Shown: positions 29,168 through 36,884 of the stretch, in pieces | Position numbering within the stretch: the stretch's first letter is position 1 | Layout: every line of letters begins with the position of its first letter | Source of the DNA: Eggerthellaceae bacterium | Lineage (GTDB): Bacteria > Actinomycetota > Coriobacteriia > Coriobacteriales > Eggerthellaceae | Length of the DNA: 54,863 nucleotides | Direction: 5' to 3' | Assembly (NCBI GenBank): GCA_022644775.1 | Contig: JALCHN010000009.1 | Span: forward strand, 1 to 54,863 | The notes under the pieces: generated by a model | What the model was told of the DNA's origin: nothing | Database searches by the model: none | What the model saw: the letters and a program-made list of their open reading frames with translations, nothing else | Program-made: the position numbers and the translations under genes

Positions 29168-30163
29168 TTACTTGCTCAGCCAGCTGAACATGCCGCGGAC
29201 CTTTTCGCCCGTGGTCTCGATCAGGCTGTCGTTCATGGCCTCGCGCTGCTCGAGCAGCTTCTTGTGGCCGTTGGCGCAGTCGTCCATGAACTCCTTGGCG
29301 AACTCGCCGTTCTGGATGCGCTTGAGGATCTCCTGCATGGCCTGCTTGGACTCCTCGTTGATGACCTTCGGGCCGGCGTAGTACTCGCCGTATTCGGCCG
29401 TGTTGGAGATGGAGTAGTTCATGAAGTGGATGCCCTTTTCGTACATGAGGTCCACGATCATCTTCATCTCGTGATAGCACTCGAAGTAGGCGAGCTCGGC
29501 CGGGTAGCCGGCTTCTACCAGCGTGTCGAAACCGGTCTTGACCAGGGCAACGAGGCCGCCGCACAGAACCGCCTGCTCACCGAAGAGGTCCTCTTCGGTC
29601 TCCTGGGCGAAGGTGCCCTTCATCAGGCCGGCACGCGCGCCGCCCAGGCCCCAGCCGTAGGACAGGGCGATGTCCCAAGCGTCGCCCGTGGCGTCCTGCT
29701 GGACACAGCACAGGTCGGGCACACCGGAGCCTTCGACGAACTGACGGCGGACGATGTGGCCCGGGCCCTTGGGGGCGACCATGATGACGTTCACGCCTTC
29801 GGGGGCCTTGATGTAGCCGTAGTGGATGTTGAAGCCATGGGCGAAGGCCAGGGTATCGCCTGCATGCAGGTGATTCTTGATGTGCTCTTCGTAGACCTTG
29901 GCCTGGATCTCGTCGGGGATGAGGATCATGACGACGTCGGCTTCCTCGGCGGCCTGCTCCATGCTCACGACCTTGAGGCCGGCTTCCTTGGCCTTTTCGG
30001 CGGAAGAAGAGCCCTCGCGCAGGCCTACGCGCACGTCGACGCCGGAGTCCTGAAGGTTCTGCGCATGCGCATGGCCCTGGGAACCGTACCCGATGATAGC
30101 GACCTTCTTGCCCTGGATCACCTGGGGGTCGACGTCCTTTTCGTAGAGGATCTCAATAGCCAT
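29168..30163 (-). CDS. ilvC: Ketol-acid reductoisomerase
   Basis: Converts acetolactate or acetohydroxybutyrate to the dihydroxy acids with NAD(P)H and magnesium. Class I length, 331 residues. The Rossmann motif is [18 protein letters not shown], with the VGLREGSSS cofactor loop after it. The HGFNIHYG and [14 protein letters not shown] blocks and the metal-binding [18 protein letters not shown] are intact. Last gene of the ilv operon, 77 bp after ilvN. Confidence 0.97.
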
Positions 30164-30240: not shown

Positions 30241-30726
30241 TTAATTCTGCGCGGACCGCTTCATCGCGATCTTGCCCGTGCGGGTGATTTCCTTGATGCC
30301 GTAAGCGCGCAGCAGGTTTTCGAGCCCTGCGAGCTTGTGCTCGTCGCCGGTGGCCTCGATCGTGATGCTCGTGCGACCCACGTCGACCACTTTCGCGCGG
30401 AAGACGTTGGCGATCTCGATGACCTCGTTGCGCTTTTCGGCGGCGACGGCCACCTTGATGAGCACGAGCTCGCGCACAATCGCATCGCCCTTGTCCATCT
30501 CGACGATCTTGTAGACGCACACGAGTTTGTTGAGCTGCTTGGTGAGCTGCTCGAACGATTCGGACTCGGTGGGCACGATCATCGTGATGCGCGAGAGGTT
30601 CTCGTCTTCGGTGGGACCCACCGAAAGGGACTCGATGTTGTACCCGCGGCGGGACACGAGGCCCACGACGCGGCTGAGCACGCCGGACTGGTTCTCGACG
30701 AGAATGGAGAGAATGTGCCTATCCAT
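30241..30726 (-). CDS. ilvN: Acetolactate synthase small (regulatory) subunit
   Basis: Regulatory partner of IlvB that gives feedback inhibition by valine. The 161 residues hold an N-terminal ACT domain (HILSILVENQSGVLSRVVGL) and a second ACT-like half, as in IlvH/IlvN proteins of full length. The ATG overlaps the ilvB stop codon by one base (TAATG), so synthesis is coupled to the catalytic subunit. Confidence 0.96.
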   Translation of the reverse strand: MDRHILSILVENQSGVLSRVVGLVSRRGYNIESLSVGPTEDENLSRITMIVPTESESFEQLTKQLNKLVCVYKIVEMDKGDAIVRELVLIKVAVAAEKRNEVIEIANVFRAKVVDVGRTSITIEATGDEHKLAGLENLLRAYGIKEITRTGKIAMKRSAQN

Positions 30727-32546
30727 TAGCGGTCAGCCTCCTCGGAGTTCTCGATCTGGTTGGAGATGTCGCCCACCGACACGGCGCCGATGACGTCGTC
30801 GATGGCGGCGCCGGGCGCGACCATCGGGAAGACGCGCTCCTCGCGCGGGATCCGCAGGTCGAGCAGGGCCGGGCCGTCGGCGGCAAGGAAGGCCGACATG
30901 GTCTCTTCGAGGTCCGCCGGATCGAAGACGCGGAAGCCCTTCCACCCGTAGGCGTCGGCGAGCGTGAGGAAATCGGGCACGTCGGAAAGCTCGGTGGCGG
31001 CGAAGCGCTTGCCGTAGAAGAGGTCCTGCCATTGGTGCACCATGCCGAGCGCGGAGTTGTTGACGATGACGACCTTGATGGGCAGATCGTTGACCGCGAT
31101 CGTGGCCATTTCCTGGATGCACATCTGAATCGAGCCGTCGCCCGAGATGCAGACGACCTGTTCGTCGGGACAGGCGATCTGGGCGCCCAAGGCTGCCGGC
31201 AGGCCGAAGCCCATCGTGCCGGCGCCGCCGCTCGACAGGAAGGTGCGCGGCACCTCGCGGTCGATGTACTGGGCTGCCCACATCTGATGCTGGCCCACGT
31301 CGGTCACGACGATCGAATGCCGGGGGTCGAGCATGTCGGAGAGCAGCTTGATCGCGCCTTCGGGGGCGATGCCGCCCTGCGAGGTGGCAAGCCCCGGCGA
31401 AGCGAAGGGATGGCGGGCGCGCAGATCGTCGATATGGGTGAGCCATTCCGCGGTGCGCGGGGCCGCCCCGCGACGGTCGAGCTCGGCCTTCAGAGCGGTG
31501 AGCGCCCGACGGGCGTCGCCCACGATCGGCACGTCGGCTGTGCGGTTCTTGCTGATTTCGGTGGGATCAATGTCGATATGGATGACCTGCGCAAGGGGCG
31601 CGAAATCGGAGAGCTTGCCCGTGACGCGGTCGCTGAAGCGCGCGCCCACGGCAATGAGCAGGTCGCATTCGGTCATGGCGAGGTTTGCGTAGCGCGAGCC
31701 GTGCATGCCCACCGGGCCCAGATCGAGCGGGTTGCCGTTGGGCAGGGCGTCCTTGCCGAGCAAGGTGGTGACGGCCGGGATCTGCAAGGATTCCGCCAAA
31801 TCGAGCAGGGCTTCGGACGCGTCGGAGATGACCACGCCGCCGCCCACGTAGAGCAGGGGCTTGTCGGCCTTGGCGATAGCGGCGGCCGCCGTGCGAATCT
31901 GCTTGGCGTTGGGCTTGATCGTGGGACGGTAGGAGGCGATATCGGACGAATCGGGGTAATGGAACTCGAATTCGGCGGACAGCAGGTTAGACGGCACGTC
32001 GATGAGCACGGGGCCAGGACGGCCCGTTTCGGCGATGTAGAAGGCGTCGCGGATGATGCCGGGCAGGTCTTCGGCCTTCTGGCACAGATAGCTGTGCTTG
32101 ACGATCGGCGTCGTGATGCCCACGATGTCGGATTCCTGGAAGGCGTCGGAGCCGATCACGCTCGTGGGCACCTGGCCGGTGATCACGACGAGCGGAACGC
32201 TGTCCATGTTGGCGGTCATGATGCCCGTGACCGTGTTCGTGGCGCCCGGGCCGCTCGTGACGAGCACGACGCCGGCGCGGCCGGTCGCACGGGCGTAGCC
32301 GTCGGCGGCATGGGCGGCGCCCTGCTCGTGGCGGCAGAGCACGTGGCGGATCTGCGTGGAATCGTAGAGGGCGTCGTAGATCTTGATGGCCTGGCCTCCG
32401 GGGTAACCGAAGATCACGTCGACGCCTTCCGCTTCGAGGGAGGCTACGATGGCCTGGGCTCCCGTGAGGACGCGCCCCTCTTTTTCGGTATGGCTGCCGA
32501 AGCGCGGCAGGCCCTTTTCGATGGTCGGTTGCCTGGTATCGCTCAC
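30726..32546 (-). CDS. ilvB: Acetolactate synthase large (catalytic) subunit
   Basis: Thiamine-diphosphate enzyme of 606 residues that condenses pyruvate with pyruvate or 2-ketobutyrate. The catalytic glutamate is in [16 protein letters not shown], and the ThDP/magnesium motif is [15 protein letters not shown] ending in IVNN. A 25-residue N-terminal extension precedes the conserved [17 protein letters not shown]. The GTG start overlaps the ilvD stop (GTGA), coupling translation. Confidence 0.97.
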
Positions 32547-34201
32547 GAGAGATACGCCCCCTTGTCTGCGCTCGTGACGAGCTTCGCGTAGCGCGCGAGC
32601 ACGCCGGTGGTGTACTTGGGCGCCGGCTTGGCCCAGCGCTCACGGCGGGCCGCCAGCTCTTCGTCGGACACTTCGAGCTCGATGGTACCGGCGTCGATGT
32701 CGATGGAGATGATGTCGCCGTCCTCGACCAGGGCGATCGGGCCGCCCGCGGCCGCTTCGGGGCTCACATGCCCGATGCAGGGGCCCTTGGTGGCGCCGGA
32801 GAAGCGCCCGTCGGTGATGAGGGCGACGCTTTCGGCCAGGCCCATGCCGTAGATGGCGCTCGTAGGCGTGAGCATCTCGCGCATGCCCGGGCCGCCCGCA
32901 GGACCCTCGTAACGGATGACGAGGACCTCGCCGGGCTTGATCTTGCCGGCGAAGATGGCCTCGCAGGCCTCTTCCTCGCTTTCGAAGACGTGAGCCGGGC
33001 CGCGATGGGCGCGCATCTTCTCGCTCACCGCGGACTGCTTGACCACGGCGGCGTCGGGGGCCAGGTTGCCGCGCAGCACGGCGAGGCCGCCCTGCTGGCT
33101 GTAGGCGTTTTCCACCGTGCGCACCACCGTGCCGTCGACGGGCGGGCAGGAGGCCACCCAATCGGCCATCGTGCCGTGGCAGGTGAGCGCCTCTTCGTCG
33201 AGCAGGCCGCGGCGGCCGAGCTCGCCGACGATGGCGGACACGCCGCCCACGTCGTTGAGGTCCTGGATGTGCAGGGGGCCGGCCGGCGCGATGCGAACGA
33301 TGTTGGGGGTTTCCTTGCAAACTTCCGCCCAGTCGGCCATCGTGATCGGGCAGCCGGCTTCATGGGCAATCGCCGTAAGGTGGAGCATCGTGTTGGTGGA
33401 ACCGCCGAAGGCCATGTCGACCATCATGCCGTTCTTGATCGAATGCTCGTTGATCAGATCGAGGGCCGTGACGTTCTTTTCAAGCAGCTCCATGACCTTC
33501 ATGCCGGCGTGCTTGGCCAGGCGGATGCGCTCGGAGTAGACGGCCGGGATCGTGCCGTTGCCGGGAAGGGCGATGCCGAGCACTTCGGAGAGGCAGCCGA
33601 TGGAATTGGCCGTGAACATGCCCGAGCAGCTGCCGCAGGTGGGGCAGGCGGTGTTTTCGTACCAGGCGCATTCCTCTTCGGTCATCTTGCCGGCGGTCAC
33701 CGCGCCCACGGCGTCGAAGAGGGTGTTGAGGTCGGTCTCTTCCCCGTGATGGCCGCGGCCGGCGAGCATGGGGCCGCCGGTGACGACGACGGTGGGGATG
33801 TTCAGGCGGCAGGCCGCCATCAGCATGCCGGGGACCACCTTGTCGCAGCTGGGGATGAGGACCATGGCGTCGAACTGGTGGCCCTGCACGGCGCATTCCA
33901 CGCTGTCGGCGATGACCTCGCGGCTCGTGAGGCTGTAGCGCATGCCGGCATGGTTCATCGCGATGCCGTCGCAGACGCCGATCGTGGACACCTGAGCCGG
34001 CGTGCCGCCGCCCATGCGGATGCCCGCCTTCACCGCGTCGGCGATGTTCTGCAGGTGCATGTGGCCGGGGATGATGTCGGTCTGCGAGCACACCACGGCA
34101 ACGAGCGGCTGCGCGAGTTCCTCGTCGGTGAAGCCGTCGGCCTTGAGCAGGCTGCGGTGCGGGGCGCGTGCCAGACCCTTCTTGATCGAATCGCTTCTCA
34201 T
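32543..34201 (-). CDS. ilvD: Dihydroxy-acid dehydratase
   Basis: Iron-sulfur dehydratase of 552 residues that forms the branched-chain 2-keto acids. Cluster cysteines are in [10 protein letters not shown] and in [26 protein letters not shown] and GRFSGATKG are further conserved blocks. First gene of ilvD-ilvB-ilvN-ilvC. It lies behind a leader with a factor-independent terminator (see 34236), so the whole operon is under attenuation. Confidence 0.97.
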
Positions 34202-34235: not shown

Positions 34236-34497
34236 TAAAAAAGCCCGGAGCTCGTCGCCCCAGGCTTCGCATTTCAACAGCACGGAAAGGCATGCCTTTC
34301 TGCAACCGTATCGGCGGTCACCGGTTCGACTTACTCACGTCCCGCTTCACGCGAAGATCGTCCGCGCTCACGGGGGTTTTCATCAAACTGCTCCGAGGTG
34401 GCTTTCAGAACGTCCTTCCACAGGCTCGCAGCGTCCGCCTGCTCTCTTATCGAAAGGATGGCCCTTACTTTCCTCTTCAACGCATTTGCTTCAACAC
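34236..34497 (-). promoter_or_regulatory. T-box-like attenuator leader of the ilv operon
   Basis: The transcript begins with GTTGAAGAGGAAAGTAAGGG, then AAGAGAGC and a hairpin, then CTGAAAGCCACCTCGGAGC. That order and spacing match stem I of glycyl T-boxes, where the specifier triplet is followed by A and the closing stem; the triplet here would be GCC (Ala), with CTG (Leu) a few bases earlier as an alternative. A palindrome GAAAGGCATGCCTTTC lies at 34285-34300. The leader ends in a terminator at 34236-34267 (AGCCTGGGG/CTCCGGGCT plus six T). The hallmark T-box sequence GGTGGNACCGCG is not found. A 21-codon ORF (34320-34385) with GGAG before its ATG is also present. Confidence 0.55.
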
Positions 34498-34502
34498 GAA
34501 CG

Positions 34503-34530
34503 AGTATATGCCCGAAAGCGATTTCCGCAA
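34503..34530 (-). promoter_or_regulatory. Promoter of the ilv operon
   Basis: On the minus strand: TTGCGG, 16-base spacer, TATACT. Places the start of transcription near 34495, just before the attenuator. Confidence 0.65.
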
Positions 34531-34546
34531 CGCGATTTCGCTATCG

Positions 34547-34576
34547 TCACAAAGCATCCACTTTAGGGTGCGATAG
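34547..34576. promoter_or_regulatory. Shared 30-bp block upstream of the ilv promoter
   Basis: Reads TCACAAAGC, three bases, CACTTTAG, three bases, GCGATAG on the plus strand. It matches 36127-36156 upstream of the BASS transporter at 25 of 30 positions. Here it is part of a larger dyad with CTATCG at 34541-34546 pairing with CGATAG at 34571-34576. It lies 16 bp upstream of the -35 box, a good place for an activator or dimeric repressor. Confidence 0.65.
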
Positions 34577-34736
34577 TGCTGAAATGAGCACGTTTTACCA
34601 GGTCATGCGCCTGCAGGAGTCGCTGCTCCCCCGCCGGCTGTCACACATGGTGGGCACGCGCGGCCCCGTGTAGCGCACCCGTCCGCACGGCCCCGAAACC
34701 CGGGAGCTGCCGCCGCGCGCACGGGCGCCCCATGCC
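34577..34736. other. Intergenic stretch after the BASS transporter gene
   Basis: GC-rich sequence between the transporter stop and the ilv control block. Short hairpins are possible (for example around CCCGGGAG near 34697), but I see no clear terminator and no supported gene. Confidence 0.4.
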
Positions 34737-35780
34737 CTAGGCCGCCTGTTCGACCGCTTCGGACTGCGCCGGATCGCCGGCGGGCACAAAGCCGCGCTTC
34801 TCATCGCGATGGGCGAACCAGCCGGCGAGCAGGGTGCCGGAAATCGAATGCCACACGCAGGACACGGCGGCGATCACCGCAGCCTGGGGCAGGGCCGCGA
34901 ACTGGGCCGTGCTCGTGGCGAGGTTGGTGGCGAGGCCGGCGTTCTGCATGCCCACCTCGATCGAAAGGGTGCGGCGCTTGGGCACGTTCATGTGGGTCGC
35001 GATCGCGGCCAGGTAGCCGAGCAGGTAGCCCACGCCGTTATGGATGAACACGGCCGCGAAGACCACGAGGCCCGAGGTGAAGAAGGTGGAGCCCTGCGAG
35101 GACGTCACGCCGCCCACGACGCAGGCCAGGCCCACGACGGCCACGCCCGGCATGCACGCCCGCACCTGCTCGTAGGCGGGGTTGCCGTCGAACTTGTAGT
35201 TGATCAAAAAGCCCAGGGCCACCGGCAGGATGACCGTCTCGATGATCGAGAGGAACATGGGAAGCGGGCTGATCTCGATGCTCGCCCCGCTCGCAAGAAA
35301 GGAGACGAGCAGCGGGGTCATGAAGGGCGCGAGCAGCGTGGAGACCGTGGTCATGCCCACCGAGAAGGCCACGTCGCCATGGCAGAGGTAGCTCATGATG
35401 TTGGACGACACGCCGCCCGGGCAGCAGCCCACCAGGATTAGGCCCAGGGCAAGGGCGTCGGGCAGGTTGAGCAGCTTGCAGACGAGGAAGGCCGAGAAGG
35501 GCATGATCCCGTACTGGGCCACGGCGCCGATGCAGATGTCGAGCGGGCGCTTCGCGAGCACTTCGAGGTCCTTCTTCGACAGGGTGAGGCCCATCGTGAA
35601 CATGATGGCGCCGATGATCAGCGACTGCCAGGAGAAGCCGTTGCCCAGAGGGTCGGTGAACAGGCGGATGTTGACCCAGTGCATGAGCGCGGGGAAAGCA
35701 AGCGTCGCGACCGCGATCGCGATCACGAACAGCGACGAATGCTTGGAGAGGAACGTGCTTGCGTGCTGCAGCGCTTCCAT
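34737..35780 (-). CDS. BASS-family (bile acid:sodium symporter-like) transporter
   Basis: Sodium-coupled membrane carrier of 347 residues, about ten helices. The BASS signature GCCPGGVSSNIMSYLCHGD lies near residues 129-147, and the second repeat half has SIEVGMQNAGLATNLA. The ATG at 35780 has AAAGGA upstream; the longer frame would start inside the riboswitch terminator. Members move bile acids, pantoate, pyruvate or other 2-keto acids. Control by a T-box riboswitch and a block shared with the ilv promoter point to an amino-acid-linked substrate such as a branched-chain keto acid or related anion. That is inference. Confidence 0.87.
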   Translation of the reverse strand: MEALQHASTFLSKHSSLFVIAIAVATLAFPALMHWVNIRLFTDPLGNGFSWQSLIIGAIMFTMGLTLSKKDLEVLAKRPLDICIGAVAQYGIMPFSAFLVCKLLNLPDALALGLILVGCCPGGVSSNIMSYLCHGDVAFSVGMTTVSTLLAPFMTPLLVSFLASGASIEISPLPMFLSIIETVILPVALGFLINYKFDGNPAYEQVRACMPGVAVVGLACVVGGVTSSQGSTFFTSGLVVFAAVFIHNGVGYLLGYLAAIATHMNVPKRRTLSIEVGMQNAGLATNLATSTAQFAALPQAAVIAAVSCVWHSISGTLLAGWFAHRDEKRGFVPAGDPAQSEAVEQAA

Positions 35781-35804
35781 GGTGGTCCTTTCTCGACGGA
35801 AGCA

Positions 35805-36090
35805 ATAAAAAATCCCTTGCAACCCGAATCGGTTGCAAGGGACGAAAGTTGCTTCCGCGGTACCACCCTTGTTCCGCCCTGTTGCCAGAGCGACGCTCCA
35901 CGCACCAACATGCGCTGTTCCCTAACGGGGAATCCCGTCGCACCCTACTGCATTCAGGCGCGCTTCTCAGAGAGGATAACGGTTGCGACCCTGTACGCGT
36001 CGGCTTTCACCAGACCCGACTCGCTGTGGCGCGGTTTCGCAATCGCCGTGTTCTCTTCAACGAATTTGCAACGGCTTGCGCCGTTGGTTG
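35805..36090 (-). promoter_or_regulatory. T-box riboswitch controlling the BASS transporter
   Basis: All main parts are visible on the minus strand. The leader starts CGTTGAAGAGAACACGG; stem I contains AGCGAGTCGGGTCTGGTG and AAAGCCGACGC. A stem III block holds CAGTAGGGTGCGACGGG and CCCGTTAG. The T-box AGGGTGGTACCGCGG is at 35855-35869. The terminator is TCCCTTGCAACC paired with GGTTGCAAGGGA, then six T (35805-35842). Uncharged tRNA would bind the specifier and the T-box bulge and stop the terminator forming. The specifier loop region reads CCGTTATCC, where GTT (Val) and ATC (Ile) are candidates; I could not fix which is read. Confidence 0.92.
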
Positions 36091-36092
36091 GG

Positions 36093-36120
36093 ATTATAGG
36101 AGCACCTCTTAGGCGAGCAA
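36093..36120 (-). promoter_or_regulatory. Promoter of the T-box/BASS transcript
   Basis: Minus strand TTGCTC, 16-base spacer, perfect TATAAT. Spacing is the same as at the ilv promoter. Confidence 0.75.
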
Positions 36121-36126
36121 GCACAT

Positions 36127-36156
36127 TCACAAAGCCTTCACTTTAGCCAGCGATAG
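36127..36156. promoter_or_regulatory. Shared 30-bp block upstream of the BASS promoter
   Basis: TCACAAAGC, three bases, CACTTTAG, three bases, GCGATAG; 25 of 30 positions identical to 34547-34576. It begins 6 bp upstream of the -35 box. The rest of the gap to pyrE (36157-36203) shows nothing further. Confidence 0.65.
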
Positions 36157-36203
36157 CGGGCGTGACGACGGGGCAGTTGATGCCGTCGCACCTCCACGGC
36201 CTC

Positions 36204-36884
36204 CTACTCCTTGGCCCCGTAAACCGCGTAGTAGGCGTCGATGGCCTTCTTCATGTCGTCGTCGATAACCACGCGGCCCTGGCATTCGCGGTTGTAGAGG
36301 TAGTCGGTGACTTCGGCCATGGTCACAATCGAAGCCGTGGGAAACCCGTAGCGATCGGAGACCTCGTCGATGGCGGCCTTCTTGCCGGAAGGACCCACTT
36401 CCATGCGGTTGAGCGAGACCATGAGACCCTGCACCTTGACGTCGGCGATCGAGCGCAGGAGCGGATACGTCTCATCGATCGACTTGCCGCTCGTGGTGAC
36501 GTCTTCGACCATCACGACTTTGGCGCCGTCGTAGAGCTCGGCGCCGAGCAGGCTGCCGCCCTCGCCGTGGTCCTTCTTCTCCTTGCGGTTGCTGCAGTAG
36601 CGCACCTCTTTGCCGTAGAGCTCGCTGTAGGCGATCGCCGTGACCACCGACAGGGGGATGCCCTTGTAGGCCGGGCCGAAGACGATGTCGAAATCGTCGC
36701 CGAAGTTCTGGTGGATGGCGCGGGCATAGTAGCGGCCCAGGCGATGGAGCTGCGAGCCGGTGACGTAGGCGCCGGCGTTCATGAAGAAAGGCGACTGGCG
36801 ACCGCTCTTCAGCGTAAACGAACCGAACTTGAGCACCTCGCTTTCGACCATGAACTCAATGAACTCTTGCTTGTAGTCTTCCAT
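36204..36884 (-). CDS. pyrE: Orotate phosphoribosyltransferase
   Basis: Joins orotate to PRPP to make OMP in pyrimidine synthesis; 226 residues. The PRPP-binding motif is VVMVEDVTTSGKSIDET, and the flexible-loop region with RYCSNRKEKKDHG carries the catalytic lysines. FGPAYKGIPLSV is the substrate block. It is the last of a minus-strand series from prfA through prmC, nucleoside phosphorylase and a hydrolase; a TATGAT at 36918-36923 (minus strand) may give it a promoter of its own. Confidence 0.93.
   Translation of the reverse strand: MEDYKQEFIEFMVESEVLKFGSFTLKSGRQSPFFMNAGAYVTGSQLHRLGRYYARAIHQNFGDDFDIVFGPAYKGIPLSVVTAIAYSELYGKEVRYCSNRKEKKDHGEGGSLLGAELYDGAKVVMVEDVTTSGKSIDETYPLLRSIADVKVQGLMVSLNRMEVGPSGKKAAIDEVSDRYGFPTASIVTMAEVTDYLYNRECQGRVVIDDDMKKAIDAYYAVYGAKE

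Follow-up and report, generated by a model that had tools for sequence, protein, structure and literature searches.

BASS and ilvD lie next to each other on the minus strand of the window (the whole stretch of 54,863 nucleotides that was analysed). They belong to two separate transcription units, BASS and ilvD-ilvB-ilvN-ilvC, and each unit has a copy of a 30-bp block upstream of its promoter. The features at the locus are as follows.

29168-30163, minus strand: ilvC (ORF translation, named by inspection)
30241-30726, minus strand: ilvN (ORF translation, named by inspection)
30726-32546, minus strand: ilvB (ORF translation, named by inspection)
32543-34201, minus strand: ilvD, dihydroxy-acid dehydratase, first gene of the ilv operon (TIGR00110, 749.6 bits)
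34240-34489, minus strand: T-box-like leader of ilvD with terminator (RF00230, 69.2 bits, under the gathering score of 93)
34503-34530, minus strand: ilvD operon promoter, TTGCGG-16-TATACT (read from the sequence; absent from the automatic promoter scan list)
34547-34576: shared 30-bp block, ilvD promoter copy (25/30 identical to the BASS copy)
34737-35780, minus strand: BASS transporter, SBF family (PF01758, 138 bits; TIGR00841, 233 bits, under its cut-off)
35812-36069, minus strand: T-box leader of BASS with AUC (Ile) specifier, GGTGGTACCGCG and terminator (RF00230, 92.3 bits)
36093-36120, minus strand: BASS promoter, TTGCTC-16-TATAAT (read from the sequence; absent from the automatic promoter scan list)
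36127-36156: shared 30-bp block, BASS promoter copy (25/30 identical to the ilv copy)
36204-36884, minus strand: pyrE, the gene upstream of BASS (TIGR00336, 155.5 bits)

A conserved block at two promoters

The block had been described in an initial annotation of this DNA. Re-reading the sequence, we found that its coordinates, the common orientation of the copies and their identity were all correct, as were the 16-base spacers of both promoters and the placing of the -35 hexamers 16 bp (ilv) and 6 bp (BASS) downstream of the blocks. Between block and leader, the two promoters have dissimilar cores. The annotation also made the ilv copy part of a larger dyad, CTATCG...CGATAG. This dyad exists at ilv, but it is absent at BASS and the congener has CCATCG; we dropped it as a functional unit because the congener does not retain it. 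The TTTGTGA half was also read as CRP-like (TGTGA) and as Rex-like (TTGTGA); both were rejected by eye, as the second half does not match.

The annotation had proposed a genome-wide motif search, and with up to three mismatches this search revealed exactly two copies in the 1.96-Mb genome. In the only congener, G001, the block also occurs exactly twice at this threshold and at the same two genes, with 30/30 identity at ilvD and 27/30 at BASS; the flank upstream of the ilv block has diverged around the identical block. The same search did not find the block in 58 other relatives besides G001. Loose three-mismatch matches in g65, between TAXI-type transporter and phosphoglycerate mutase genes, and in G113, upstream of clpB, are at unrelated genes and were set aside.

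On an order-0 model, two intergenic regions 250-300 bp long have a chance of about 3.5e-5 of containing such a 25/30 pair. About 0.7 such pairs are expected among all pairs across the whole window, so the likeness of the blocks counts by their location and conservation. That expectation speaks for chance similarity of two promoter-upstream stretches, an explanation that was already disfavoured and that we consider very improbable: the copies stand at two adjacent promoters, are conserved in the congener, and independently rank first and second in the window for a published operator.

Predicted HisR operators in the blocks

The operator in question is that of HisR, a TrpR-family repressor whose consensus, cacTTTAnnnnnnTAAAgtg, has been published for Firmicutes, Actinobacteria and Synergistetes (PMC9413887). 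The parts of the blocks that concern it are listed here.

34559-34578: predicted HisR operator of the ilvD operon, CACTTTAGGGTGCGATAGTG (12/14 against the published consensus; position weight matrix (PWM) rank 1 of 54,844)
36139-36158: predicted HisR operator of the BASS gene, weak, CACTTTAGCCAGCGATAGCG (11/14 against the published consensus; PWM rank 3)
34547-34555: TCACAAAGC, block sequence lying outside the operator and common to ilvD, BASS and the ilvD region of G019

We scored the published operator, cacTTTAn6TAAAgtg (14 positions), untrained, at all 54,844 window positions. The scan gave a single 12/14 position and a single 11/14 position, the window's top two, and these are the two sites listed above. 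None of 209 scrambled palindromes (0/209) reproduced such scores at both sites. The ranks of 1 and 3 came from a PWM trained only on his-gene operators from other genera. With this matrix the ilvD site scores 15 bits (chance expectation 0.85 per genome, 1.3e-4 per 300 bp) and the BASS site 7 bits (about 45 per genome, 0.007 per 300 bp). The right half of both sites, GATAG(T/C)G, departs from the consensus TAAAGTG, with 4/7 matches at BASS, and both predicted operators sit upstream of -35. In G001 a further site, of 10.8 bits, overlaps the ilvD -10, where the equivalent in this genome reaches 4.5 bits. The BASS operator is unconvincing alone; taken with the shared block and its conservation in the congener, it is likely a genuine site.

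The 20-bp palindrome was thus recognized at ilvD and at BASS, in both cases at a promoter and conserved. ilvD and BASS are neither histidine genes nor hisR, a restriction of targets that describes the published regulon and not the operator. A model built from his-type sites, R3, gave few genome matches at E <=10 and the ilv site was missing among them; a direct pattern caught it. We read this miss as tuning of the model to symmetric his sites, and it is also a mild counterpoint to the HisR reading.

Comparison with relatives, also proposed in the annotation, gave different results for the two genes. Upstream of ilvD, sites of 13-27 bits were found in nine family genomes beyond the two of this genus. 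At BASS orthologues in other genera neither site nor block was found, so that the BASS site was seen only in its own genus. This restriction and the weakness of the BASS site would suit a duplication relic, in which insertion of BASS between pyrE and ilvD went along with copying of the older upstream region, leaving only the ilvD copy functional; in G019, pyrE directly precedes ilvD, which would also fit. However, the congener keeps the block at both genes although the DNA upstream of the block has diverged, and the likeness does not extend to the promoter cores. We therefore judge such a relic to be distinctly unlikely.

The regulator gene and its other predicted sites

HisR orthologues are present in Coriobacteriales and Eggerthellales, and DNA binding by the Ruminococcus gnavus protein needs L-histidine (PMC9413887). 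PF01371 was found in 132 of 137 family genomes. In this genome it has a single gene (71 bits; TIGR02531, 83 bits, over the cut-off), so a cognate HisR is encoded. The closest solved chain is E. eligens HisR, 3g1c; the DNA-contact helix reads ASATTIAR in the family's HisR and ASTATISR in E. eligens, and contact positions differ. The hisR gene is directly downstream of citramalate synthase (cimA), an enzyme of the isoleucine pathway (TIGR00977, 633 bits for the G001 protein), and a predicted operator of 19 bits, CACTCTACTGTGTTGGAGTA, identical in G001, precedes the cimA-hisR operon. The pairing, with hisR directly 3' of cimA, was seen in several genera of the family, and in G019 hisR follows an ilvE-like (branched-chain aminotransferase-like) gene; the loci concerned are L239 1892-3800, L240, L213, L225, L226, L230, L235 and L237.

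Further operators are predicted in this genome at hisXYZ (27 bits), aroB (25), an SSS symporter (22), hisZ (21.5) and a leuA-like gene (20), and all of these, like the cimA-hisR site, are matched in G001. At hisXYZ and cimA-hisR the predicted operator overlaps the apparent -10 region or lies downstream of it, a position that suits a repressor. On the coding strand the leuA-like site, CACTATCGTGTGCTAAAGTG, is identical to the ilvD site, CACTATCGCACCCTAAAGTG, at 17/20 positions, and it has the CACTATCG and CTAAAGTG halves of the blocks, so that this half-site variant recurs at a further gene of branched-chain type. With at most one mismatch, the lineage pattern CACTTTAN6GATAGYG gave 6 and 7 matches in this genome (G000) and G001, and its reversed control 0 and 1. 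The predicted regulator is not branched-chain-specific, as the same genome has stronger predicted sites at histidine, aromatic and transporter genes.

Comparison of upstream regions revealed a dyad, CACTTTAnCGnAATAAAGTGCGATAG, ahead of the ilvD promoter in the g64 orthologues, which on its sequence equals the published HisR consensus. In these genomes an extra GATAGCG half-site lies one 8-bp step further on. Comparable 8-bp stepping occurs in tandem TrpR-type binding. The ilvD region of G019 has a related arrangement, CACAAAGCATTCACTTG...GTGCGATAG, on the opposite strand. A sequence-only model built from six g64 sites detected more copies before ilvB (G131), ilvD (G130), transporter, aroC and serC genes, and the ilvB site was re-confirmed. 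The draft genome G132 is the only g64 genome in which PF01371 was not found, and the ilvD site was not found there either; in several HisR-bearing relatives the ilvD upstream site was also not found.

Three side observations were made with these searches. SSS-family (PutP-like) symporters lie behind HisR-type sites in three genera (L263, L283, L280, L187, L199), a pattern suggesting that these symporters belong to the HisR regulon as a conserved member not yet reported. In three g64 genomes (L195, L197, L198), strong HisR-type sites are followed by a membrane protein without an NCBIfam match, a candidate amino acid transporter. A GATAGTG-type site, TACTTTAGCTGCCGATAGTG, was found upstream of a VorB-like 2-oxoacid:ferredoxin oxidoreductase operon in both species of the genus (L281, L284, 1501-1520); it falls within the coding sequence that precedes the operon, and it may be conserved for that reason.

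TCACAAAGC, at the left of the block, is conserved, but HisR does not account for it. It is absent beside most other HisR sites of the genus but shared by the blocks and G019, and may therefore reflect a second factor or an extra half-site. The same distribution, together with the departure of the right half from TAAAGTG, would fit binding of a different, branched-chain-specific factor, the likeness to the HisR operator being partial convergence or overlap. Such a factor seems rather unlikely to us, since the 20-bit leuA-like site shares the halves of the blocks, the blocks hold the two best HisR consensus matches of the window, and HisR is linked to cimA, or in G019 to an ilvE-like gene.

T-box-type leaders downstream of both promoters

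The BASS leader, at 92.3 bits against a gathering score of 93, has the antiterminator GGTGGnACCGCG (here GGTGGTACCGCG), the AUC specifier and the terminator. In BASS orthologues of Dorea, Blautia, Anaerobutyricum and Coprococcus the leaders are T-boxes of 108-123 bits with ATC at the specifier position. A BASS carrier under an isoleucine (AUC) T-box is common to Eggerthellaceae and Lachnospiraceae (L043, L045, L046, L053), and this conservation suggests a branched-chain-related substrate. The specifier gives BASS a link to isoleucine that does not depend on the block. The initial annotation had tied the carrier to branched-chain metabolism through the block; the tie holds, with the qualification that the AUC specifier carries at least as much of it as the block does.

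The ilvD leader is different. We searched it for the canonical antiterminator and did not find it, and its 69.2 bits come mostly from Stem I. Stem I features were detected in ilvD leaders across the family at 43-74 bits (L124, L125, L128, L129, L131, L136, L138, L140), and the triplet at the specifier position is GCC or GGC, not a branched-chain codon. The ilvD leader may be a divergent or repurposed T-box.

A proposed model for control by HisR

Together, these results make it probable, on sequence evidence, that the blocks hold an operator pair for HisR (YerC/YecD, TrpR family) that controls ilvD-ilvBNC and BASS. The annotation's suggestion of a common transcription factor on top of RNA-level attenuation is supported as the best reading, with HisR as the predicted factor. 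From the observed sites, their rank and conservation, and the regulator gene with its linkage to branched-chain genes, we infer HisR binding, its ligand and the sign of regulation. A dimer of HisR, using L-histidine as its co-repressor like the R. gnavus protein, would bind CACTTTA-N6-GATAG(T/C)G some 55-75 bp ahead of the ilvD-ilvBNC and BASS start sites, and binding would tune the frequency of initiation. Started transcripts would then traverse a T-box-type leader that tunes elongation, with the BASS leader reading tRNA-Ile. Control would thus have two layers, a histidine signal at the DNA level, common to his, aro, cimA-hisR and transporter genes, and a branched-chain signal at the RNA level. 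Repression by histidine-loaded HisR is our first guess; an operator upstream of -35 is unusual for a simple repressor, and given this position activation is possible.

Because published HisR regulons hold histidine genes only (PMC9413887), the branched-chain genes and BASS would be new HisR targets; within an incomplete coverage of the literature, we found no publication tying HisR to branched-chain genes. A broader proposal, which we regard as evenly balanced, is that in this Eggerthellaceae branch HisR, once a repressor of histidine genes, has been rewired into a cross-pathway regulator whose targets are branched-chain, aromatic and transport genes, is encoded in an operon with the first enzyme of the isoleucine pathway, and acts jointly with T-box leaders on shared transcripts, one of these leaders being specific for isoleucine. 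If so, a repressor held to serve histidine genes only would, in anaerobic gut actinobacteria, also govern the synthesis of isoleucine, leucine and valine as well as a carrier of the bile-acid family, an example of a narrow amino acid repressor broadening its regulon. It would also offer a concrete example of a single transcript under control at both the DNA and the tRNA level, and would suggest that the BASS carrier here handles a branched-chain compound or precursor.

Comparison with known systems

The closest known system is the HisR regulon of Firmicutes, Coriobacteriales and Eggerthellales (PMC9413887). The predicted sites share its 20-bp palindrome, the regulator family is encoded here, and the his operon and hisXYZ have operators here as well. 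The differences are the targets, ilvD-ilvBNC and the BASS carrier, the right half-site GATAG(T/C)G, the position of hisR behind cimA, and sites upstream of -35. T-box leaders (RF00230) are matched by the Stem I and terminator of both transcripts, and at BASS by GGTGGTACCGCG and the AUC specifier. However, their action is on RNA, past the promoter, which leaves the block unexplained, and the ilvD leader is without the canonical antiterminator. The E. coli TrpR operators are comparable in the homologous fold of their regulator and in the overlapping sites at 8-bp steps, seen here in the his operators and the g64 ilvD sites, whereas their half-site sequence and their ligand are different.
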